Source: Tubulanus polymorphus (lineage: Eukaryota > Nemertea > Palaeonemertea > Tubulaniformes > Tubulanidae). Taken from it: a stretch of DNA of 64,000 nt. Each line of letters begins with the position of its first letter. Within the stretch, counting starts at the first letter, position 1. The position numbers and the translations under genes are program-made. Below the pieces are notes generated by a model. The model did no database searches. It was not told the DNA's origin and saw only the letters and a list, made by a program, of their open reading frames with translations. Positions 281 through 49,400 of the stretch are shown one piece after another. The stretch spans positions 4,075,001 through 4,139,000 of the forward strand of contig NC_134031.1 in NCBI RefSeq assembly GCF_964204645.1, written 5' to 3'.

Positions 281-1269
281 ATGACAGACACCAAGGTTCA
301 TGTGGAAGAAAAAGTTACTGCTGTAAATGAACTGACGCAGCCTCAGTCGCAACATTCAGGTTTGTCTAGGGGAGGGATACGCGGGCGGGCGATGAAAAAC
401 CAAAGGCTGAAGGCCGATCCAGCCTGCCGCTACTTCCGCTCGAGCGGTACTCAGGTTTGTAGAAGTGCCCTCCTTTTTTTGAAGTTCGTCGTGAAAAATC
501 CCGTTTTACCAGGCAGAAATTATCTCTTGCAAATGAGTCCTTATCGCTGAGTTGATTTGACTTTGATCAGGGAAATGTGAGTCTGACTTGTACTGACATC
601 TCATATTCCGAGCTAGTATTCTGGTAGTTTTGATAACGCTGGTCAATTTGAATAATCGAAAATGGTCAACTTCTTTTATGAATAGTATTTACTTCAACAG
701 GTCAAAATGCCATATTTTATAGATGGATGGATGGAAGGATAGATTTGATCCTCTAAATATGCTCAGATTGCATCTCAGAGCCCTAATCTTCCAGACCCCG
801 TATTGGCTGTGCCCTTCCACAATTGAGCAGTACTCAGTAACCTAGGCTAGATTCGCTACAGATATTCAATTCGTGAACAAAGTCTACAAGATTTTTCAAC
901 TTCATCTGAAATTTGCTTTTACAGTGGCAGCAGGAACCGCAACTGTGGTGGTCGCCCGAACGTCGTCATTCCCGGAATATCCAGTAACAGTTTTCTGTCC
1001 TTCGTGTAATACAGATGTTTTAACAGTCACCACCTATAAACTGGGCGGGTTGGCTTGGATCGGTTTTGGGGTCATGGTGTTTATCGGGTACGTGATTTTA
1101 AGCACGCACGATTCATGAATTGTCATCTCTCAATAAAAATATTTTCTTTTTCGTTTTAAGATGTTGGTTCGGTTGCTGCCTTATTCCTCTTTGCGCGAGA
1201 GCGTTTAAGGACGTGGAGCACAGTTGCCCTACGTGCCATGGCCGGTTGGGAGTCTGGAAAGTTATCTAA
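281..1269 (+). CDS. LITAF: LITAF-domain membrane protein
   Basis: A three-exon model gives a small LITAF/SIMPLE-type protein: 281-446, 925-1087 and 1161-1269, about 145 residues. LITAF proteins are zinc-binding, membrane-anchored proteins of late endosomes and lysosomes that interact with ESCRT and ubiquitin-ligase components. Exon 2 holds the first Cys pair (VFCPSCNTDV) and the hydrophobic insertion (LAWIGFGVMVFIG). Exon 3 completes it with CWFGCCLIPLC and the second Cys pair (HSCPTCHGRLGVWKVI) directly before TAA. This is the expected CxxC, hydrophobic, CxxC layout. The donor at 446 (GTACTC) is chosen because the nearby donor at 454 puts exon 2 in a frame with an early stop. The N-terminal segment is basic and lacks the PPxY/PTAP motifs typical of vertebrate LITAF, so exon 1 is the least certain part. 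Invertebrates have many LITAF paralogues; one-to-one orthology is not shown. Confidence 0.85.
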
Positions 1270-6739: not shown

Positions 6740-6978
6740 ATAATCCTTTGGAACCAACTTTGTAATGTGATGTAGAATTTCTTAATATCTTGAGTCATAA
6801 GCATAGTAAGTGTACTTTGATTCTTATTATAATTATGAGCTGAGATAATTAATGGGAAAAAAATGAATGGAAAAAATATAGTTAATATGTTAAGTGATAA
6901 AATTTGATGCGCATATCAAGTTATATTAATATTTTTTATTCATTTCTGGTAACATTGTCATTTTAGTTGTTCCTCGCC

Positions 6979-9900
6979 ATGTCAAATATAACCAAATCGA
7001 AATTGCACCCAAATATGGACCATTTCAAACTGAACAACCTTCCAACTAACTCTCAACATCAACATTCCACTACCAAACTAGAATCCTGTGATATTTGTGG
7101 ATTGACATTCCATAATTTTTCGCTGCTGAAACACCATCTGCGTTCGCACGAGCGTCCGCACCGATGCGTCGATTGTTACCAAACGTTTCGCTTGCTATGG
7201 CAACTGAAAGCGCACGAGAAAATTCACAAAGTTCACCGCGAACGTCGTTTACCGTTTTCGACGCGCGCAGCGGTCATCGGAATGAATAAGCGTTTACGCT
7301 TGAACGAATCCGGAGACAATAAAACGAACGCGACGACCGATTCGGAATACGGTTCCGATTTGAGACATAAATCCAGGTCGAATTCGATTGATTCCGACGC
7401 TGAATCGAGCAGTTGTGATAGTCTGATTTCCGCATTGCCGGATAAGGAAAATGATCCTTCGTCTGCTAGCTGTGATAATATTGCCTCGACGAAACATCAC
7501 CACAATCTCCAGCAGAAGTTTTCCCGTCGCAAAATATGCAAGAAGACGTTCATTGGTAAACTCAGTCTGCAACAGCACCTGCGCAACAAGACGACGCTGA
7601 ATTTTACAGGTGGTAAGAAACAATTGTCTCCTGAATATCATTCCTCATTACGTTGCGATCTTTGCAACAAGTCGTTTAAATTCGTCGCTCAAATGAAGCG
7701 ACATTTAACATCTGTCCATTGTTCTAAATCTGCTACTAGCCCGAGCTGTAAGTGTAAGCATTGCTCGGCCGTATTCAGCTCGTTAAACGATCTGAAAGCT
7801 CATTTAGTAAACCACCGGGCCGAATTTAGTCGCACGTATCCTTGTAAACATTGTAAAAAAGTATTCGGTCAATTGTCGGCGTTGACGGAACATCTGAAAT
7901 CTCACGCCTATAAACCACACGTTAATAATGAAAATCCGATTCAAACTCATAGCTCTATAACCGATTTCCATTGCAATATTTGTCCGATCGCATTTACTAA
8001 ACTCGATCTCTATCGGGCACACGCTGATACTGAACATTCTAGATCCCATCCCGTTCAGTGTTCAACTTGTCACGATCGGTTCCATGCCGATTGCGAGCTT
8101 AAAATCCATTCCGCGCAACACTGCGTTCAACTGTCGCCCGAAGAAATGATTTTACCCCGCGAATACGCCGCCCCCGTGAAATGTAACGTTTGCGAAGAAA
8201 CGTTCAAAACGAAAGGCTTCGATAGTCTGTTTAGGTTACACATGGATCAGGCCCATCGCGAAACGCATCCGCATTATTGCGCGACGTGTTTCGCGCGCTT
8301 TGAAACTAAAGTCGAGTATAAATTGCATAAAAAGGTCCACCGCAGTACGCGTGCGGTCGTCGACAAACAACTCTGGTATATACCGGGTTCGTCTTGTAAC
8401 TTGTGTTTGAAATGGAATTTTTCCTATCGAGGCTCGAAAGGTCATTATAACGAGCACATGGAGAAATACCACGACGATTGTCGTTTCAAATGCGAAGTTT
8501 GCGAGGACCGTTTCGATAAACAGTCGGATCTCGACGAGCACATGGTCGATCATAATGATGATGATGATGATGATGATATTTCGAGCGATGATGAATTCGA
8601 TTATCCTCGCCGACGGTTTCACTGCAACGTCTGCAATACGTACTTCCTATTCGGACGAATGAGTTATAAATTCCATTCGGATCGGTTTCATTCGGGAACT
8701 CATCCGTTTCGCTGCGACGTCTGCTACGACCGGTTCGAAAACGAGTTACTTTTGAAGATCCATTCGCAGACGCACGGCGTCGTGCTCGCCGAGAAAGAGA
8801 AGTCGGTTCCGCGCGTTTACGCGGTACCCGAATTCAAATGCACGATCTGCGATCATAAATTCGGCGAGAAAGGCTTCGACAGCGAGTACCGATTTCATAT
8901 GGATCAACTGCACGTTTATTCGCATCCGTTTCGATGCGAAATGTGCGCGGAAAGATTCAAAACCAGTTCGGAGCTTTGGTGGCACGAAAAATACCACGTC
9001 GGCAAAGAACCGGTCTACGACCCGCTGCTGACGCACGTGCTCGAATATGAATGTAACGTCTGCCGAAAACCGGGTTTCATCTACCGCGGACCCGGTTCGC
9101 AGTATCGCAAACACCAAGACGAAACGCACGAGAAAACTCATCCTCATCAATGCGACATTTGTTTTGATTCGTTCGAATCGGAACGCGATTTAAAATGCCA
9201 CGAATTCGACACGTTGCATTTGCGCCCGTTCAGATGCAGCCTGTGTCCGACGTGGGGATTCGTCAGCTGGGGTCCGGACAGCCCGTACAAGAAACACCAA
9301 GACGAATTCCACGCGAGTTACGCGCACCAGTGCGAACGATGTCACGACCGCTTCGAGTATCAGTACGAACTGTACGAGCACATCCGCGACGGGCATCCGG
9401 ATCTTCGAAAGCGTATAGTCAAGTCGTATTGGGCGGCGCTCGAAGAGGAGAAACGAAAACAGCCGGCAAACGCGACGAGAACGGACGCCTCGTTAGCGAA
9501 AGCGGAAAATCGATCGGCTTCAAACAACGGAAATAATTCTGATCCGGTCGCCGATTTGCAAAACAAAGAAAATTTCAAACCGACTCGTAATGAAAGTGGT
9601 TCCGCGTTCGATGAAGTCGACGGTGAAATTTTGTCGACCGGAAATGTCATCAAAACAAATTCGCTCGTCGAGTCGTCCGGTGATCGAAGAAAAAAACGAA
9701 AAGGAATACCTCGACGCATGGACGACTGCTCGCTGAAAACTCCGACGACGGCGAATGAAATCGAAACGGATAATTTACAAACGAAAACGAAGAAGCTGCT
9801 CGGTGGAAAAGAGGTCACCGATGAATACGCGGATGGCATCGCGGAAACTGGACAGGGCTTGTTAGATTTTATCGGTAACCTAGTTATCGATATCAACGCG

Positions 9901-12900
9901 GAAAAAGCCATGAGCACCGACGACAGCGTAAGCAGCATCGAAGGCTTGACCCAAAAACTGAATCAGAATAACTCGACCAACGGCGACCCGAACAACGCTA
10001 TATATACGTGCAATCAATGCGGACGCGTGTTCACGAGGAAGGCTTCGTATTCGAGGCATTTGAAGTTCCACTCCGGGGTGAGGCCGTATAGCTGTCACTT
10101 CTGCGAGCGGCGGTTCATCCAGTCGTCCGATCTGAAGCGCCACATCCACACGCACACCGGCGAGAAAACTCATCTCTGCGTTCGTTGCGGCGACAAATTC
10201 CTGCATCTCACGCAGCTTCATCGCCATCGCAAGAAGTGCACCGGCGAGTTGAACCTGCCTCTCGAGCCGAAAGCGCCGCGTTCGCTGCCGATGAGGAACG
10301 TGTTTCCGGAAAGCTCGGCGTCGATGGGTCTCGCTTATATACAGAGTATGATGCTTAAACAGAAAAACCTGTTGCCCGCTCCCAATCTGACCAGTCTACC
10401 GGTTATCGGCGTCGCCACGCCGATGCGTCCGATGAAGCTGGAAATGAATAATCTGCCCGTGTTCCCGGGCGCGGAGATGATGATGTCACCCGTTTCGCCG
10501 ATGTCGGAAAATGGTGAAGCGTCGAAATCGAAGCATACGCCGGGAGAATATACCGACGACAGCGACGTATCTAATATGTCGGCAGAAATTAAAAAAGAAA
10601 ATACCACTCGAGAAAACGAGAGTATTTCGTCGGCGATTGACGTCGATCAAGTCGACGGACTGATGATGATGGAATCTCCGAATTCGATGAATTCGACCAA
10701 AACTGAAAATCTATCTCCGCAATTGAACTACGCCTCCCCACCGACGACGACGATGGCGGCGACGAAAGCGATGTCGAAAAATACGTGTAAAATCTGCGGG
10801 CGCGTTTTCAATTGTCAGAACAACCTGGCGCGACACATCCGCGCGCACACCGGTGAAAAACCGCACGGCTGTAAGTACTGCGGCAAACGATTCATACAGT
10901 CGTCCGACCTGAAGCGCCACGTCGGTATTCACACCGGTCAGATGCCGTTCAAGTGCGAAATCTGTCAACAACAATTCGTGCACAAACATCGTTACTTGCA
11001 GCACATGGAACGTCACGGAATCGACGCCGATAACGTGGCCGCTTTTTCCGCGTCGCCGAAACTTCAAGAAAACGGAGATGATTCGTTCGGGACGGCGTCA
11101 GGCGCGAAGGATTTGATCCGCATGTCGATTTTGAAGAAGATCGTCCATCGGCCGGACGGTACGGAGATAAGCGAAGCGACGGCGAAAATGGCCGCGTCGA
11201 GTTTAGATATCAGCAGCAGCGACGAAAACGTCTGCGCTACGAAGGAGAACGACGTTCGCAGAGGTAAATCTTTCGACGGAAATGATGTCGTTAAAGACGA
11301 GGTCTCGAAACCGGATACCGAACCAGAACAGGGCGACGGTAAAAAGCAAACGTTCGAATGTCAGTATTGCGGGAAGAATTTCAAGTTTCACGCTCTGTTG
11401 GCTCGGCATATTCCTAAACACACCGGCGAACGCGCGTTCAAGTGTTCGATATGTAATAAAGGATTCATTCAAACGTCCGATTTGAAGCGTCACATGCTAC
11501 GACACAACGGTTACACGCCGCACATGTGTAAGTTGTGCTTCAAGGAGTTCGTGTTCGAAGATCGCATGTTCGATCACTATAGAACGGCTCATAAAATGGC
11601 CAAAAACTGGATCGAAGAACAAATGCTGAAACAGAAAAATCACATGTACAACAATGAGAATATACCGGAAGCAGCGTCGGTCGGTAAGAAGACGATGAAA
11701 CTCGATGTAGCCGCCATGCCAGCGAACAAGAATCCTTTTCCTCTTAGCGATAAAATGAATATCAACTACAACGGACCTGTTTTACCCCTGACGTCGCGAC
11801 CCGACGATTGGAAGTTTCTGTCCGCGCAGAATCCAATGGTTTTCAATCCGAATTTGGTTTCCTATCCGACGATCGCGGCCCAGTTACGCGTTTCGCAGAT
11901 GAACAACAACGGCCTAAATCAAGATTGTCCGCTCGACCTTTCGGTGAACTCGCTGAAAATGCCGAAGATGAAGGAAATCAAAAATATTCAACCACTGCAG
12001 CCGTCGATGAAAGAAAACAATGCCCTTCATATTGGAAAAGTTAAAAAAGGCATTGAAAGTCTCGGTAAAAAATTCAAATGTGATATTTGCGGACGGGAAT
12101 TTCCATTGCTGACGAGTTTGAGACGCCACATGATGTCTCATTCCGGCGAAAGGCAAGTTTTCTGTCACCTGTGTGGTCAGGGATTCTTGCAAGTTGCCGA
12201 TTTGAGTAAACACATGACGACGCATCTGACGCAGCCGTTGAATATCCGTTGCAAGGAATGCAACGCCGAATTCCTGACCGAGCAACGACTTCTCCAACAC
12301 ATTCAGATAGTGCATCGGCCGTACCAGACTCAGCTGCAGGATTTAGCCCGCGACGACAACGCGATCAAGAAGAGTTTCTTTACCGACGATGCCGGCGGCA
12401 GAGACATGGTCGACGGTGCGCCGGCGATGCAGATGAATAACGGCAACAAAGCGATGTTCAACTTCCAGAAAACGAGCACGCCGTTCAAACTAGAGATGAA
12501 GAGTAATCTGATGAGTCCGACGTCTTCCGACGAGTCACCCGTGAACGAGGACGAATCGCTGATGAAAGACGGCGGCAAACCGAAGAAAGCTCCGTATAAA
12601 AGACCGCGCGGTATTTACCCGTGCGATTATTGCGGTCGGGTTTTCCCGTATAAAGCCGCGCTCGTTCGTCACGTTCGAGTTCACACCGGCGAACGACCGT
12701 TTAAATGCCACGAGTGCGGCCACGGTTTCATACAATCGTCCGACTTGAAGCGCCACCTGTCGAAACACGCCGATAAAAATCTGAAGTGCATGTTCTGCCC
12801 GTTGCTGTGCACGACTCGCGAAGATTTAGAAACGCACGCTAAACTCGAGCACGGGTTTACGTTGAGTCCGGTGGATTTGAACGCGGAGAAAATGAGTCCG

Positions 12901-14142
12901 GGAAATATCAGCGCGGAGATCGAACGCAAGTTCAAAATGAACGGCGCCGAGCAATCGACCGTCGGAACCGCTGAAGTGAAATGTGGGCGAAAAAGTCGCA
13001 AAGGTATCCCGAAAAGACACGTAGCCGAGGAGATCGAAGATGTTACAACTTGTGCAGAATTAGACGAAGATATCGACAATAACGAAGACGATAGTTTCGC
13101 GATTGATTTTTCCGAAAAAGAATCGCATGCCGGTTACGACGAACCGGACGGTCTCGTGATGGTCGAACCACCGAAGTTGGTCAGACAGTCGCCGCTGTGT
13201 TTCGATGCTTTGCCTCCGTTGGAAAAAATGGACATCGACGAAAATCACAATTCGCCTCATAAAGTTCCGCTTCAGATGCCCGTACTTCAGCGAATGGTTC
13301 TGCCGCAACTTTCGCTGCAAGAATGCGATGCGACGACGAAAAATGAAAAAAATAACATGTCTCTACTGAGTAAGCTGCCGTTCGCGACGAGCGATCTGGA
13401 GAATAAGTCGCCCGGTCGGCCGGCGGCGGCTTCGACGACCGCGGGACAAGACGTTCCTAAACCGAACTCGGAAGGCTTATACCAGTGTACGTATTGCGAT
13501 AAGACGTTCAGGTGGCCATGTTTGCTGACGCGCCACGTGCGAAAACACACCGGCGAGAAACCGTTCCCGTGCACGATCTGCAGCAAAACGTTCCTGCAGT
13601 CGTCCGACCTGAAGCGTCACATGTACACGCACAGCGGCAACAAACCGTTCAAGTGCAACGTCTGCAACATGGAGTTCGTGCAGCGCGCGAAACTGTTGTC
13701 GCATCTGAAAAAACACGGCCAGACGGACGAGAACTCGCAGATGATCGCGAATCTAATGAACACGACACTGAACGGTCGGCTGCAGTGCAAGTTCTGCAAG
13801 AAGAAATTCCGCAACGAGATGACGCTCTCCGAACACATGGCCGATCATAAGCTCTACAAGTGTCAGCACTGCAACATGACGTATTTGAGTCTGCATGATT
13901 TGCAACAGCACGAGAATTCGAGTCACGCGAATAGCAAGGCGTTACTCGTCGAAACGCCGCCGATACTGGACGTGTTGCGATCGCGGTACCCGCAGTCGAC
14001 GACGAATACGGCCGTGTTTCCGGGACCGATGGTGCCGTCTGTAGATGAAAACAGCGATGTTTCGTATTTGTGCAGTAACTGCGATAGATTCTTCGACGAT
14101 AAAGTCGCGTATGACATTCACGTGATGAAATGCGAAGCCTGA
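6979..14142 (+). CDS. Giant multi-C2H2 zinc-finger protein, single coding exon
   Basis: An uninterrupted 2387-codon frame. The ATG at 6979 (CTCGCCATGT) is preferred; it follows the acceptor TTTTAG at 6966. Product: probably a nuclear DNA-binding regulator. Two fingers lie near residues 37-83. From about residue 226 to 805 come further fingers including seven tandem two-finger units, where the first finger has an enlarged loop (15-16 residues instead of 12 in several units) and the second looks like C..C.DRF...EL..H. Six three-finger clusters start at residues 1011, 1270, 1461, 1701, 1882 and 2170. In four the middle finger has the helix QSSDLKRH; the others have QTSDLKRH and QVADLSKH. Three more fingers end the protein, the last with Cys in place of the final His. 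Linkers hold a PLDLS motif (1651-1655, CtBP type), two RKGIP(R/K)R basic motifs and acidic runs. I do not recognise a named orthologue. Coding GC content is clearly higher than the flanks. Confidence 0.97.
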   Translation: MSNITKSKLHPNMDHFKLNNLPTNSQHQHSTTKLESCDICGLTFHNFSLLKHHLRSHERPHRCVDCYQTFRLLWQLKAHEKIHKVHRERRLPFSTRAAVIGMNKRLRLNESGDNKTNATTDSEYGSDLRHKSRSNSIDSDAESSSCDSLISALPDKENDPSSASCDNIASTKHHHNLQQKFSRRKICKKTFIGKLSLQQHLRNKTTLNFTGGKKQLSPEYHSSLRCDLCNKSFKFVAQMKRHLTSVHCSKSATSPSCKCKHCSAVFSSLNDLKAHLVNHRAEFSRTYPCKHCKKVFGQLSALTEHLKSHAYKPHVNNENPIQTHSSITDFHCNICPIAFTKLDLYRAHADTEHSRSHPVQCSTCHDRFHADCELKIHSAQHCVQLSPEEMILPREYAAPVKCNVCEETFKTKGFDSLFRLHMDQAHRETHPHYCATCFARFETKVEYKLHKKVHRSTRAVVDKQLWYIPGSSCNLCLKWNFSYRGSKGHYNEHMEKYHDDCRFKCEVCEDRFDKQSDLDEHMVDHNDDDDDDDISSDDEFDYPRRRFHCNVCNTYFLFGRMSYKFHSDRFHSGTHPFRCDVCYDRFENELLLKIHSQTHGVVLAEKEKSVPRVYAVPEFKCTICDHKFGEKGFDSEYRFHMDQLHVYSHPFRCEMCAERFKTSSELWWHEKYHVGKEPVYDPLLTHVLEYECNVCRKPGFIYRGPGSQYRKHQDETHEKTHPHQCDICFDSFESERDLKCHEFDTLHLRPFRCSLCPTWGFVSWGPDSPYKKHQDEFHASYAHQCERCHDRFEYQYELYEHIRDGHPDLRKRIVKSYWAALEEEKRKQPANATRTDASLAKAENRSASNNGNNSDPVADLQNKENFKPTRNESGSAFDEVDGEILSTGNVIKTNSLVESSGDRRKKRKGIPRRMDDCSLKTPTTANEIETDNLQTKTKKLLGGKEVTDEYADGIAETGQGLLDFIGNLVIDINAEKAMSTDDSVSSIEGLTQKLNQNNSTNGDPNNAIYTCNQCGRVFTRKASYSRHLKFHSGVRPYSCHFCERRFIQSSDLKRHIHTHTGEKTHLCVRCGDKFLHLTQLHRHRKKCTGELNLPLEPKAPRSLPMRNVFPESSASMGLAYIQSMMLKQKNLLPAPNLTSLPVIGVATPMRPMKLEMNNLPVFPGAEMMMSPVSPMSENGEASKSKHTPGEYTDDSDVSNMSAEIKKENTTRENESISSAIDVDQVDGLMMMESPNSMNSTKTENLSPQLNYASPPTTTMAATKAMSKNTCKICGRVFNCQNNLARHIRAHTGEKPHGCKYCGKRFIQSSDLKRHVGIHTGQMPFKCEICQQQFVHKHRYLQHMERHGIDADNVAAFSASPKLQENGDDSFGTASGAKDLIRMSILKKIVHRPDGTEISEATAKMAASSLDISSSDENVCATKENDVRRGKSFDGNDVVKDEVSKPDTEPEQGDGKKQTFECQYCGKNFKFHALLARHIPKHTGERAFKCSICNKGFIQTSDLKRHMLRHNGYTPHMCKLCFKEFVFEDRMFDHYRTAHKMAKNWIEEQMLKQKNHMYNNENIPEAASVGKKTMKLDVAAMPANKNPFPLSDKMNINYNGPVLPLTSRPDDWKFLSAQNPMVFNPNLVSYPTIAAQLRVSQMNNNGLNQDCPLDLSVNSLKMPKMKEIKNIQPLQPSMKENNALHIGKVKKGIESLGKKFKCDICGREFPLLTSLRRHMMSHSGERQVFCHLCGQGFLQVADLSKHMTTHLTQPLNIRCKECNAEFLTEQRLLQHIQIVHRPYQTQLQDLARDDNAIKKSFFTDDAGGRDMVDGAPAMQMNNGNKAMFNFQKTSTPFKLEMKSNLMSPTSSDESPVNEDESLMKDGGKPKKAPYKRPRGIYPCDYCGRVFPYKAALVRHVRVHTGERPFKCHECGHGFIQSSDLKRHLSKHADKNLKCMFCPLLCTTREDLETHAKLEHGFTLSPVDLNAEKMSPGNISAEIERKFKMNGAEQSTVGTAEVKCGRKSRKGIPKRHVAEEIEDVTTCAELDEDIDNNEDDSFAIDFSEKESHAGYDEPDGLVMVEPPKLVRQSPLCFDALPPLEKMDIDENHNSPHKVPLQMPVLQRMVLPQLSLQECDATTKNEKNNMSLLSKLPFATSDLENKSPGRPAAASTTAGQDVPKPNSEGLYQCTYCDKTFRWPCLLTRHVRKHTGEKPFPCTICSKTFLQSSDLKRHMYTHSGNKPFKCNVCNMEFVQRAKLLSHLKKHGQTDENSQMIANLMNTTLNGRLQCKFCKKKFRNEMTLSEHMADHKLYKCQHCNMTYLSLHDLQQHENSSHANSKALLVETPPILDVLRSRYPQSTTNTAVFPGPMVPSVDENSDVSYLCSNCDRFFDDKVAYDIHVMKCEA

Positions 14143-20256: not shown

Positions 20257-21907
20257 TCATTCCCTTCTATCTAGTAATTTAGCAGCTCCTGAATCCAGAA
20301 ACCAATGAACATCTCCGTCAGTCGGTCTGACACGACCCGCAGGAAGTGGAAACAGATCGTTTCCTTCTAGAACTCTCTAGAAAAAGAGAAAAAAGACGAG
20401 ACATTCTTTTATCGAACAGCATCGAGATCAGCAACATCAGACTAGTACAAACCATCTCAGATTAGTATATTTTACCTTTAAATTTTGCGCTTTACTTTCT
20501 CCGCAAGCTACAAATATCACACAACGAGCATTATTCAGTAAAGGATAAGTCATCGTTACCCGACCTGGAGGAGGTTTCGGAGAATCACTAATCGCAGCAA
20601 TCGGTTTGGTCTTTTCCTGAAATCATTACAATAACAAATAGCGATGAAGTACCGGTACATTATATTACAACTGGGTTTGAATCTGATCGAAATAATCACC
20701 TCCAACAATGGATGCCCGGGGAAAAGTGAGCAGGTATGCCCGTCAGGACCCATACCAAGAACGAGCACATCAAATTGGGGTAAACCTTCTCCTGGGAATG
20801 TTTGTCGTAACTTTTTCTCATAATCTACAGCGGCTTCTTCAACTAAAATATTCGAAAACGTAGCGTAAAAAATCAGGAGTCTACAGTCGTGAGTTAAGAG
20901 TTAACTGTGGGTTAAATTTAGTTCTTTTTCAAAATGAGTTAACTCTGAGTCAAAAGTGAACTTGCAACCGTGGAACCAAGTCCAGGGAACAGTCTTAAAG
21001 ACTGGAGTTAATTAATGAATTAATTTTAACCCGGGGGCTAATTCATTTTCAAGTCCGTTACCAGTCTTTAGATACCAGTCTATAAAACCAGCCTCAGGTA
21101 CTATATATGTTCTTATCTCGGCAGATTTGAAAACGACAAGGTGTCATAGACTACCTGACACTGATGGATCAATTTTAAAAACGTGCTCGTCGGAAAGAGG
21201 AGCTTTAGACATCAAGTTTTCCTTGTAGTATTTGTAGGTACATTCCGAATCAGTGAAAGGAACATGGCGCTCATCACAAAAGTAAACTCTCCACTCATCA
21301 TAGTTAAGTTGCGTTCCAAGTTCTGGAAGACCTTGACTCAGATATTTAGCGACACTGCCACCTAAAATGGTACAGATTTCATTGAGAACATCAAATCATG
21401 GGTATCGGTATGTTCTTATTGTTGTATATGACTGTGGTCCAAACAGAGTATATCCGACACATACCTATGAATAGGATTTAGGATAAGGGTTAGGATTTGG
21501 TTAGGTACTATATGAAGTTACAACATTTAGCACGATTACAATAGGCCTTGGGTGGTCTAGTGGGAGACGCTGCGCTAACAATATGTGCTGGTCTATTTTA
21601 CCATTCCTCAGAACACGCGAGCCCTAGGGCCAATGAGCGATGTGAATTAGACAATCACAGGCCAAAACAGGCTAATATCTACATGACATGCGAAATAAAA
21701 CCGGATCTGGCAAAAAAATCATATCCAATTCTCCCCTCTCAGAGATTGATCTTTTGAATGAAATAAAGCTATTCATTTACCTGAGACCCCGATGGAGAAT
21801 TTACGTTTTTCGCTTACTGCATCATTTTGTTTACTTAAAATAAGCTCTGTGAGCGATTTAATCAATTTAGATTCGTCGTCGATAATATGAAGTATGGGCG
21901 CCGCCAT
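20257..21907 (-). CDS. PGLS: 6-phosphogluconolactonase
   Basis: Hydrolyses 6-phosphogluconolactone to 6-phosphogluconate, the second step of the oxidative pentose phosphate pathway, in the cytosol. Five exons: 21907-21781, 21361-21155, 20842-20700, 20616-20476 and 20376-20257. They keep phase and give 245 residues (human PGLS has 258). Hallmarks in order: SIGVSGGS near the N-terminus (phosphate/sugar site), YFCDERHVP, the family signature [17 protein letters not shown], and a C-terminal [13 protein letters not shown]. The start is ATGGCGGC at 21907. It lies 67 bp from the ATG of the divergent UPF0488 gene, so the two must share promoter DNA. A degenerate inverted-repeat transposon copy occupies intron 2. 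Confidence 0.96.
20881..20990. repeat. Degenerate AGTTCCACAG-family MITE
   Basis: Contains the diagnostic GAGTTAACTCTGAGT core and an end resembling AACCGTGGAACC. Related copies lie at 27685, 27926, 31402 and 54777. It lies in PGLS intron 2. Confidence 0.5.
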
Positions 21908-43400: not shown

Positions 43401-46400
43401 TCAAAAGGAACATATACCTAACACACGATCTCTTCATTTTCGACATGGTTTTATGGAATAATTGCATCGGTTAACATGTAAACAAGACAACGTAACAATT
43501 TTGACCTGTAATTAGGGCGTACAAATCTAGCACTTTTGCTGGATTGCATTCTTTCGTTTTCGATAATATGGTACATTCTTAACACTGATATATTTGCAGA
43601 CAGTGTATTGTCCGTGACGCGGTAGATGACGACAACTCACGTTTGAATAACAAAAGTCAAAGACAGACGTCACAATGGATTAATAGATACTTTTTTAAGT
43701 GCTGCTTTATTGATTGCAATAAGCTCACAGCTGTAGCTAATGTTTACGCAACAGACCACAATGTAACGATCTATCTATGTGAATAGCAGATCATCTTTAC
43801 AGAAATTGCGCGTGTCAGAATAAATAACAAACTCATATACAACTAGCATAATTTTATTTGCCCTGTCTTCTAGCATTGAAGGGATCTACCTTCAGCCAAT
43901 CACTTAAAAGGATTTTTATGTAAGGACCATCTAGACGGAGTCCCTACAGATCAGTCTATCCTGGAGTTCTTAAGGAAAAAATTTTGTATTTTTAGGAAAC
44001 ATCTGAATCACTTTCATGTCCCAATAACAGTGGACTCCTCCTAAATTGGTACTGGTCTCATTAAACCATCAATTTGGTGTTTTTGTATGCAAATATTCAA
44101 CATTGACACTACTAAATTCTGTTTTTAATTTGGCAACCACCTCGGTAGGCGTACAAATTCTACCTTCAAAAGGATTTTCTGTTTAGAAGAATTTTTTAAG
44201 GAATCAAGGAGTTTTAGGGACCCTTCTAGATCGGACCGCGAGAATAATATGTTTAGTTGAGAAGGAACTTACCAAGTTGACAAATCTGATTGATGATAAT
44301 GTCTATCACAATGAATGTGCCAGTTCGACCAATGCCAGCACTGCGTAATACAACGAACAAATATAAAATATAAAATCAGCATCGCTTTGAATATCAAAGT
44401 ATTTTTTGAATAATTTCACATCCGGTCAACTTCGTTTCGAAAGCTACTCGATTCAATAACGTGAACAAACAACGGACAAACCTGCAGTGAACAATAATAG
44501 GACCAGCCTGCGGTATATTCTCCTGTTTTTGGTTGATATCTTGAAGGAAGTTGAGCACGCACCCGGGATCGGCCGGCACTCCGTGATCGGGCCATACTTT
44601 AAACTGATAATGATAAATAGCTCGCGTTGATGCTTTCTGCAAAAGAAAAATACATCGTATTTCATCAACAATTTTGTACAACCTACTAACAATTCTAATA
44701 GCCTACTTCTCAAATTAAAGGAGCTTTCAGCACCTTAAAAAGCATTTTCTATCTCGCCAGAGTTTTTAAGGAATCGAGGAGTTGTGGGGTACCTGTGTTA
44801 TCTAATAGCAAACCACTTATACTGAAATTTTGAGATATGGAAGTTTTTTGTGTTTTTGGTTACCTGTCCATCATTTTCTCGCCTGGTCAACAGAAATTCA
44901 CGCAACGTGTAATCCGTAGTATCAACTTCTTTAACGCCATGAAGCACCAGTTTAGCACCAAGTATTTCCATATCGTGAGACTCTGTTTCGTCGGGCCAAT
45001 ACTTGACACATTTTATCTGAACGGGAGCCATAAAAAGAAGGATCGCATCAATCGTTATTCCAATTCTAAAAGTTATCAGACGAAATTTCATCCGTCGATT
45101 TTTTAAATCTTTTACCTTTCCGCGTTCGACTTCTTTTGTTGTCATGACGATGACTCGCGAATTTTCCTGCCAGACCATTCTCCAGAAATCCGTTATCGTA
45201 GATTGTAAACACCCCTGCGCTGCTATGTACATTTTCTTCGCTTCGGGCACATCTTCATCCGACTGGCAATGAAATTTCGAGGAGTTTTTTCAACAAACCT
45301 TTTTTCAGTTTTCACAGTTATGTAAACTATCATTGAAATGCTGACGGAGGCACGCAAGACCTGACCAGGCTGATTTCACTCCATTCTGATGAACCAACAA
45401 CCCTGGTCAGTTGCGCAGTCGGGATTTGTACTTAAGACCAATCTAAGCATACTTTTGGTGAAGCCACGACAAAATAACAACAATAACAAAATTCATCCTT
45501 GAAAATAGTATGTTTATAGCACAATCGATTTTGCCGAGTCACTTCAGCCTCATCAGGTATGAAATAAACTATGTACAGAAGAGCGTATAAGCCCACAGCA
45601 GAAATAAACAACTATTTGGAATATGAATACAATATTTACACACATCAATGGGTGTGTGACAGTAAACATTTTAGAATATATTGAGGGTGTAAATTGAGGC
45701 TGAAACGACTCAGCGTAATTGATCGTGCTGTAATATAATATTGTCAAGGATGAATCTTGTTTTTGTTGTGGCTTTATTGATCATTCGACTATCTACCAAA
45801 AGTCTACTATTTTCGGTACTATAGCAAATCTAACAATCTACAACCAGCTCATTTTTCAAATTAGTTAATTGCAACTGTGCAAATGACTCTGCTATTGTTT
45901 TAAAATCTCAAGTCTTGAATAAGTCTCGAAATTGAAATATATTCTGGATTCGCGTTATAAACAGAGAGCGAGATTAAAAGCACTTGAACTTACCGTGATG
46001 TAATTTGCATTGATATAATCAGCTCCGATTTCATCTTCAAGTCCGTCCCTCAACGTAACCCTCGTGTGATCAACTGTAAGTAATGAATAAATCTACAACC
46101 TGTAAACTATTATCTGATGAACAATAATGTTTGCATCGTAAAACATAAACGCCTGGATGGTCAAGATAATAGCCGGATAATACACATCTCTATGAGATTA
46201 TTCATTGTATCCCTGATCTGATCTATTCATTACATACTTTCGAAAAGAAGATACACTTACATGGAAGTATATTTTTATAACGATTTTTGTTTTTATTCTC
46301 TGGACGTTTTCCTTCTTTCCGACTGTACAAATGTTTGCATTCCATTTGTTGTAGTTGCTGAAACATATTTCGAACGAAGATTTAGAAAAAAAAAACACAA

Positions 46401-49400
46401 AATGGATTTCGAAGAAGAACCTGGAATCGACTACGCGATAAACGACCGACAGAATTGAAGACTCTTGAATTTAATAGAGTTTTCTGTATGATGACAGATG
46501 AAGACAGAAAAATATAATGAATAGAAATTCTTAAGCTCCACAGCTGTAACAACTGTATTCGCAACAGACTGAAAATGCAATAATCTATCTATCTATGTAT
46601 ATCTAAGCATATGACCTCGGCCATACTATCCATGATCTTAGCCAGGCATACTATATACGCTCTTAGCCATATTACCTATGATCTTAGCCACATTATCTAT
46701 GATCTTAGCCATATTATCTATGATCTTAACCATACTATCTCTGATCTTAGCCATACTATATACGATTTCAGCAATACTATCTACAACCTTAGCCATACTA
46801 TCTACAACCTTAGCCATACTATCTACAACCTTAGCCATACTATCTACAACCTTAGCCATACTATCTACAACCTTAGCCATACTATCTACAACCTTAGCCA
46901 TACTATCTACGATCTTAGTCATACTATCTACGATCTTAGCCGATACTATCTATGTAACTGTACCTCAAACTCTTCCCAGAAACCGGCTTTCTGAACGCCG
47001 TTCGAGTTTTCTTTCTGCAACTCGCGAACGCGCGATTCGATACCGGACGCGCTGATACGCGTCGCGTTGAACGGCATTTTTAAATGAACGACGATTCCCG
47101 ATTTCTCGACCATCGGATTCTTTTTATAATGATCAACGAGGTCCGACAGCGTGTCGAATTGCGGCCCACCGCCGATATCATATTTACCATCCTGAAATTA
47201 CAGAGTTGTGTGTAAACTTTCATTTGCGTTATTCTACTATTGACACAAAATTCCGTCTACCCGATAACATATCCAATATCCCTGAGTTTTTTAGGTTGTT
47301 TTTTTGCTAAATTTGTCTAATTCCCCGAGTTTTCCCAAATTTATTCAAGATTTTTTGCGATTGCCTGAGTTTTCCAGGTTTTCCAGTTCAGAAGCCATCA
47401 CGCCTGCCTGAGTTACATCAAAATAAAGACTTCTAGTTAACTATATCTATAGAGAATTGTACTGAACATACGAGGAGCGCTTTTTCGTTTTAACAAGGAC
47501 TTACCTGACATCTGATCATGATATGTGTGACTTTATCATCGACTCTGACGGATAGTACATAGTCACCGGGAGCACTCATACTCTCTCGCACTAAATAACT
47601 ACCATTCTTTCCTTTATCCATTAAATACTTCTCGGCTTGTTTCCCCGACAAATGACCGTGAAACCATCTAGAAATATCAACACACAATATCAGCCCCCCA
47701 ATAAATTAAGGGTTAGACTCCGCCTAAGTTGGATCCGATCAACCCGGATAACCGTACAAATCAGACGTTTTTTGAAACATTTTTTGTGACACCATATGAA
47801 ATACGTAATATCCAACTCGGATATCAACCAAGTCAGACACATTTTTACAGTCCCAAAAAATCTGATCGCTAAGTCTACAGTAGATGTAATATTTCAAGCC
47901 CCTTGGTTTCTAGTATTTAGCTAGACTAAGCAAACTTTTGTGAACTTGGCCCCCGACTATAGCCACGATCACACGATTGGGCCTGGAAAAATTGGCCCAG
48001 ATCGGGACCAAGTCAAATTTGGCCCGTGCCTAATAATAGAGTACATTCACACGCAAACCACTCTCAATATTAAACAATGCTTAAACAGAGCCAAGTGAAT
48101 CACTTCCTGGGCCAGTAGCAATTCAAACGCAATAATTTAACTCTTGTTTAAATTTGGCTCGGGTGATCGCGGCTTATTGTACGGCATACAATATGCCCCC
48201 ATGCACTAATATTATTATCAATTAAATATCAATCAAAACAAACGAACATCAACTGAACGAGTTCTTTCTGTTTTAATACCTTTCAGTGGTCGGGTCAGCG
48301 GAACTGAGCGGATACTTCAATTCGATGATTTCGCCATTCTTTTCTCGCAACTGTCCGAGATTCTCCATGTGATGCTGCATCAGATCGGTCAAAGTGGCAA
48401 ATTTTTCACCGCCGTACAAGTCGTAATAATCGCCGGTATTCTGTATTTTTATATGAGTCACTTGTCCTTTACGTCTATTAGAGAGAAACAAATATGAAAA
48501 ATATATTTCCATAACAAATACGTAGGAAAAACATTGTTAATACAAGTTAAAAATATCTTTAACGGTCATAATGATTATGGACTGAACTCGAGGGAACTGG
48601 TATTTAGAAATTACTGGTATTTTCGGATATATTTCTTTGAAATTTTCCTTCCGAGGGGGACACACTGGGCCTTCGGGGACTCCGCTACATGAATCATTAC
48701 ATTTGATATTCATATTCTTATGATTTCATGCTACAAGTAAATTACAAAATCAGCAAATCGAAATAGGCCTTATAAATGATGGAACTTATTGATATCAGAT
48801 CAGACAGTCTATTTCTGAAGATGGCTACCCACGGCTGCCAACTTCTAAGAAGTGCTATCAGTAACAAATTGAATTTTTTCAGTAAAATTTCATTTTCATT
48901 GAAACATGAAAGAAAATGTTCAAATTAATCAATAATCAACAAAAAGACCTTCATTAACATTTTTCATATTTTTGTATGCATCAAACAAATCAAATCAGTT
49001 TTTGCCGACATAAACTGATAACAAATACTGAAAATCCGGAACAATTGGCAGCTCTGTTTACCTAATTGCATCCGCTAAAAAATATAGATCAATTATCATG
49101 GCACGCTGAATTGTGATTTTTTGGACAATCTATCACTTTTGTTTGACCTGTTTCTTCCCTGACTTTGTATTCCCAGTCATGGTCTGCTAAGAAACTGATT
49201 GATTTTACGCGCGATCAAGCGATTTCGACAATTTCCCCAACTTTTCCCTGAATTTTAGCTTTTTTGTTCAAAATTCCCGACATGATTTCCAGGAAGCGGC
49301 CGCCCTTTCTATTTCTGCTCGGTGTACTTTCCATTTCTAATAAGGGAATAGAACTCATGATCGAGCAATTCAATCAGCGATGCGTGCGCGCAAATTCAAT

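Follow-up and report, generated by a model that had tools for sequence, protein, structure and literature searches.

The window analyzed here, a stretch of 64,000 nucleotides, contains on its + strand a reading frame of 2387 amino acids (aa) that runs uninterrupted from an ATG at 6979 to a TGA at 14140-14142 (Table 1). These limits of the zinc-finger gene had been given in the original prediction, and start, stop and open frame were each verified. GC3 within the frame is 0.42-0.84, compared with ~37% GC in the noncoding parts of the window. Since an in-frame TAG (6964-6966) lies within an acceptor-like ttttag upstream of the ATG, an untranslated leader exon is probably located upstream of 6979. 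Neighbors detected by Pfam are included in Table 1. At window positions 46584-47055, a ~21-base tandem repeat is open in two frames (SHTIYNL and AILSTTL repeats).

Overall layout of the protein

The protein starts with isolated fingers, continues with seven two-finger units (dyads, aa 332-806) and then with six spaced three-finger clusters (triads, aa 1011-2246). Both the seven dyads and the six separated clusters had been predicted, and all were located. Missing from the earlier description were the two N-terminal fingers, the three fingers before the dyads, the two fingers after the last triad, and the terminal finger. The original interpretation as a whole was upheld in part: the existence of two distinct modules stood and was strengthened by the charge, loop and duplication data given below. 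In Pfam searches with curated cut-offs, PF00096 matched the whole protein with 208 bits over 20 stretches, placing it among the C2H2 proteins. The dyad block alone scored 23.4 bits, below the PF00096 cut-off of 25.2, but passed that of PF13894. Pfam returned generic C2H2 models only and no family-specific one, and no relatives were found in the prokaryote and viral collections.

Table 1. Coordinates of the zinc-finger gene, its modules and motifs, and neighboring features in the window
Feature	Residues (aa)	Position	Strand	Remarks	Basis
LITAF-like zinc ribbon		846-1118	+	neighbor	Pfam
Putative splice acceptor		6961..6981	+	ttttag, end at 6966; start codon 6979-6981	sequence; predicted
Coding exon	2387 in total	6979..14142	+	open throughout	
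Two C2H2 fingers	37-83	7087..7227	+	N-terminal	sequence
Three C2H2 fingers	226-309	7654..7905	+		sequence
Dyad D1	332-381	7972..8121	+	normal loop; D4 counterpart	sequence, pairwise comparison
Dyad D2	402-454	8182..8340	+	GFDS loop; D5 counterpart	sequence, pairwise comparison, motif search
Dyad D3	473-525	8395..8553	+	YRG loop; nearest D7 and D6	sequence, pairwise comparison
Acidic run		8557-8577	+	DDDDDDD, directly after D3	sequence
Dyad D4	549-599	8623..8775	+	loop +1	sequence, pairwise comparison
Dyad D5	621-673	8839..8997	+	GFDS loop; modeled	sequence, motif search, model
Dyad D6	692-747	9052..9219	+	YRGPGSQYRKHQ loop; modeled	sequence, model, overlay
Dyad D7	753-806	9235..9396	+		sequence, pairwise comparison
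Basic motif	903-913	9685..9717	+	RRKKRKGIPRR; likely nuclear localization signal	sequence; function predicted
Triad T1	1011-1087	10009..10239	+	middle helix QSSDLKRH; third finger C2HC	sequence
Triad T2	1270-1346	10786..11016	+	middle helix QSSDLKRH	sequence
Triad T3	1461-1538	11359..11592	+	middle helix QTSDLKRH	sequence
CtBP-binding type motif	1651-1655	11929..11943	+	PLDLS, between T3 and T4	sequence; binding predicted
Triad T4	1701-1779	12079..12315	+	diverged middle helix QVADLSKH; net charge +1	sequence
Triad T5	1882-1958	12622..12852	+	middle helix QSSDLKRH; third finger without core F	sequence
Second basic motif	2004-2013	12988..13017	+	RKSRKGIPKR	sequence; function predicted
Triad T6	2170-2246	13486..13716	+	middle helix QSSDLKRH	sequence
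Two C2H2 fingers	2270-2316	13786..13926	+		sequence
C2HC finger	2365-2385	14071..14133	+	terminal	sequence
6-Phosphogluconolactonase/glucosamine isomerase exon		20556-20900	-	neighbor	Pfam
Protein-tyrosine phosphatase exon		44798-45289	-	neighbor	Pfam

The two basic motifs share RKGIP(R/K)R, and one lies before T1, the other before T6. The RKGIP likeness between the two spacers was rejected as significant: its score was reached by 5 of 300 shuffles and it was one of 36 comparisons, which is insufficient alone.

The N-terminal dyads

The dyads had been described as units of about 50 residues with an enlarged first-finger loop and a C..C.DRF second finger. This length fits the finger pairs, which span 50-56 residues, but not the repeat period of ~70. 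The C-to-H loop of the first finger is enlarged (x13 to x16 instead of x12) in six of the seven dyads (in dyad 4 by one residue only), D1 being the exception, and C..C.DRF is exact in four of seven, the others carrying ARF, ERF or DSF variants. Genome-wide, the pattern GFDSx[FY]RxHMD matched twice, each time within this gene (control, 0). A single-sequence search of the animal's own genome revealed no close paralogue of the dyad block. The best other matches were ordinary fingers with ~26-44% identity, and those inspected had normal loops.

Pairwise comparison of the dyads gave the highest scores for D2-D5 (154) and D1-D4 (150), followed by D3-D7 (120) and D3-D6 (107). The linkers after D1 and D4 are also alike (PREYAAP and PRVYAVP), with a score of 38 against 15.9 +/- 3.6 for shuffles, none of 5000 of which reached 38, and D1-D3 can be aligned with D4-D6 over ~200 residues with small gaps. 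The pairing and the linker likeness suggest that a three-dyad block was duplicated, giving (D1 D2 D3)(D4 D5 D6/7), and that the last dyad was probably copied one further time.

The dyad fingers are acidic to neutral, with a mean charge of -0.9 per finger vs +2.7 in 112 other fingers of the genome (Mann-Whitney p 2e-6). An AlphaFold2 model of D5-D6, built with the other dyads (five sequences), was of moderate confidence (mean pLDDT 74, pTM 0.43). In this model, which carries no metal, the beta-beta-alpha order is kept in the enlarged-loop fingers, so that the structure prediction does not bear out the view that these fingers cannot bind zinc. In the two enlarged fingers the modeled helix begins at the first His minus 4, after GFDS or GPGS, while in the partner finger it begins at F+3. 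The enlarged loop would thereby delay the helix, and the usual DNA-contact positions would fall in the loop. Modeled D6 overlays the fingers of ZBTB7A (PDB 7n5w; Z 8.7, 1.5 A, 56 residues). This best structural overlay is a likeness of fold alone; in ZBTB7A the loops are of normal size and the fingers are DNA-binding. A zinc-finger fold with an altered surface is plausible for the enlarged-loop fingers. From sequence and model, the front half of the protein looks suited to gripping other proteins, and the dyads would form a protein-binding array.

The triads and their repeated middle helix

As predicted, the middle helix QSSDLKRH is exact in four triads, and the two variants are those of T3 and T4 (Table 1). 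When the 268-Mb genome was searched with the degenerate pattern Q[S]SDLKRH, six matches came up (reversed-pattern control, 1). This gene accounts for five of these and a small finger gene located on its contig for the sixth. Across the middle fingers, identity is 73% at the six variable helix positions vs 20% in the scaffold, showing that the helix is more conserved than the scaffold, the reverse of ordinary finger arrays. Corresponding helix/scaffold values over the six triads were 0.24/0.24 (finger 1) and 0.12/0.10 (finger 3). In the comparison arrays of up to 13 fingers, helix identity over the best five fingers reached 0.43; for a 24-finger array only the all-finger helix identity was obtained (0.22). 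Large tandem clusters of C2H2 genes are present at C8:11.40-11.65 Mb and C10:10.90-10.93 Mb, within which one frame (L039) encodes more than 20 head-to-tail C-x2-C-x12-H-x4-H fingers.

The likeness of the middle helices could stem mostly from duplication or gene conversion in the recent past, instead of from selection on recognition. The 24 helix bases are indeed near-identical between triads, the Ser codon is TCC in 5/5 cases, and codons for the same residue agree in 64 of 103 cases against 42 expected. However, the remainder of the triads is just 33-45% identical between clusters at the protein level, indicating old duplications, and synonymous changes occur within the helix (CAG/CAA, GAC/GAT, CTG/TTG, CGC/CGT). 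Moreover, this gene prefers TCC where the next codon starts with G; this preference accounts for some of the codon excess and weakens the all-TCC serines as evidence for conversion. We regard this explanation as distinctly improbable.

Fingers 1 and 2 of the triads are basic (mean charge +2.75, close to the +2.7 of other fingers in the genome) and are joined by TGEKP-like linkers of canonical length. The finger 2-3 linkers and the third fingers are degenerate.

Relation to known zinc-finger families

Like this protein, SALL/Spalt proteins are large C2H2 proteins with separated finger clusters, long low-complexity spacers and, within clusters, a TGERPF linker. In the genome's own SALL gene, located on a separate contig (C3:46500-51000, L046), the second-finger helix is near-constant over three separated clusters (0.78 vs 0.30 for the scaffold). 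The spaced clusters with a repeated second-finger helix found here therefore have a precedent, and judged by sequence the logic is not new, since SALL does likewise. Identity with SALL was nevertheless rejected, because a distinct SALL gene exists and the triads carry QSSDLKR instead of the SALL helix TTKGNLK/STRGNLK. SALL reads AT-rich sites and lacks enlarged-loop dyads. The present protein departs from SALL in its reading finger and in having an unusual front half.

The genome's PRDM3/PRDM16-like (Evi1) proteins resemble the present protein in having C2H2 clusters that are dispersed and a motif of the PLDLS/PLDLT type, and differ in their fingers and in lacking dyads and QSSDLKR. Identity with this family was rejected as well: the best match (33-40% identity) is through generic finger positions, and Evi1-type helices were not found. 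The genome has two such genes on the contig of the gene studied here, C7:290935-294303 (L003) and C7:333974-337552 (L002), ~43 kb apart, in opposite orientation and with near-identical finger clusters. By its sequence, this pair is a local duplication. PRDM3/16 is usually a single gene in invertebrates.

It is quite possible that the gene is the local copy of some other known, named bilaterian family, as SALL, RREB1, ZNF462 and HIVEP are generally known as large, ancient, dispersed C2H2 proteins that are often single copy. Against this speak the purely generic Pfam matches, the separate SALL gene, and a full-text literature search in which the helix QSSDLKR had no match. The literature search also gave nothing relevant on annelid or enlarged-loop C2H2 families.

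The proposed spiralian origin is supported by the presence of Lox5, Lox4, Lox2 and Post Hox genes in the genome, which mark the animal as a lophotrochozoan. No mitochondrial COX1 was found in the assembly. The Hox cluster (C6:5318228-5634747) is compact and collinear, with ten genes on one strand over ~316 kb, which we take to be in the order lab, pb, Hox3, Dfd, Scr, Lox5, Antp, Lox4, Lox2, Post2. A homeobox gene that we assume to be Post1-like lies apart from it (C7:16160411).

Predicted DNA reading by the triads

Recognition codes are unreliable for natural zinc fingers. The predicted preference of the QSSDLKR helix for GCA agrees with published modules, in which GCA is paired with QSGDLRR (PMC5260015). 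The engineered modules are synthetic and have the same contact residues Q(-1), D3 and R6; in the natural helix, position 2 is S instead of G, and position 5 is K. Finger 2 may possibly prefer GCT instead. All six first fingers carry R at helix position 6 (28% in the background, P about 5e-4), which together with the QSSDLKR helix predicts a common core 5'-GCAG-3'. Finger 2 would read GCA and finger 1 would supply the next G in each cluster, and the third finger and the spacers would tune affinity. In five of six first fingers, position -1 is hydrophobic, suggesting weak base reading by these fingers. T4, diverged and almost uncharged, counts against uniform reading by all clusters.

The hydrophobic -1 positions, the degenerate third fingers and finger 2-3 linkers, and the wide spacing of the clusters would also suit a protein- or RNA-binding surface formed by QSSDLKR in the six clusters, with the whole protein acting as a scaffold. 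We consider this unlikely, because conservation is limited to the base-contacting helix of finger 2 and absent from its scaffold, and because the clusters are basic with canonical finger 1-2 linkers. In addition, SALL has the same pattern and is reported to bind DNA by means of a finger pair of this kind (PMC9838217). The original prediction had left open whether the clusters bind dispersed related triplets or have a protein-binding role; the evidence favors the triads as DNA readers and the dyads as binders of proteins.

Other zinc-finger repressors are known to recruit CtBP through motifs of the PLDLS type, and PxDLS motifs arise by chance in proteins of such length. Here PLDLS is the sole PxDL[STVR] match in the protein, of the type found in CtBP-recruiting repressors, and from its position between T3 and T4 it would recruit CtBP. 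ZNF516 is reported as one example among CtBP-linked zinc-finger proteins (PMC5612949).

Discussion

We propose, with a probability of about 0.5, that the gene encodes a single-copy, SALL-like spaced-cluster spiralian regulator that binds proteins through its front half, reads DNA through its triads and most likely acts as a repressor. One protein would hold several GCAG sites simultaneously, whether dispersed or clustered, in the way that SALL does on AT-rich sites. A more specific version of this proposal, in which the protein represents an unnamed spiralian-specific family whose duplicated acidic enlarged-loop dyads bind proteins and whose six SALL-like clusters read a common GCAG core, letting a single protein bridge many sites and a partner complex, is less likely.

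If the proposal is true, the SALL-type logic of repeating one helix across separate clusters arose in evolution two or more times, each time with another helix, and the two proteins allow a clean comparison of the ways in which multi-cluster zinc-finger proteins read short sites that are dispersed. The dyads with enlarged loops would then provide a natural example of a zinc finger moved from DNA contact to another task, a change made by an insertion of three to four residues at the start of the helix.
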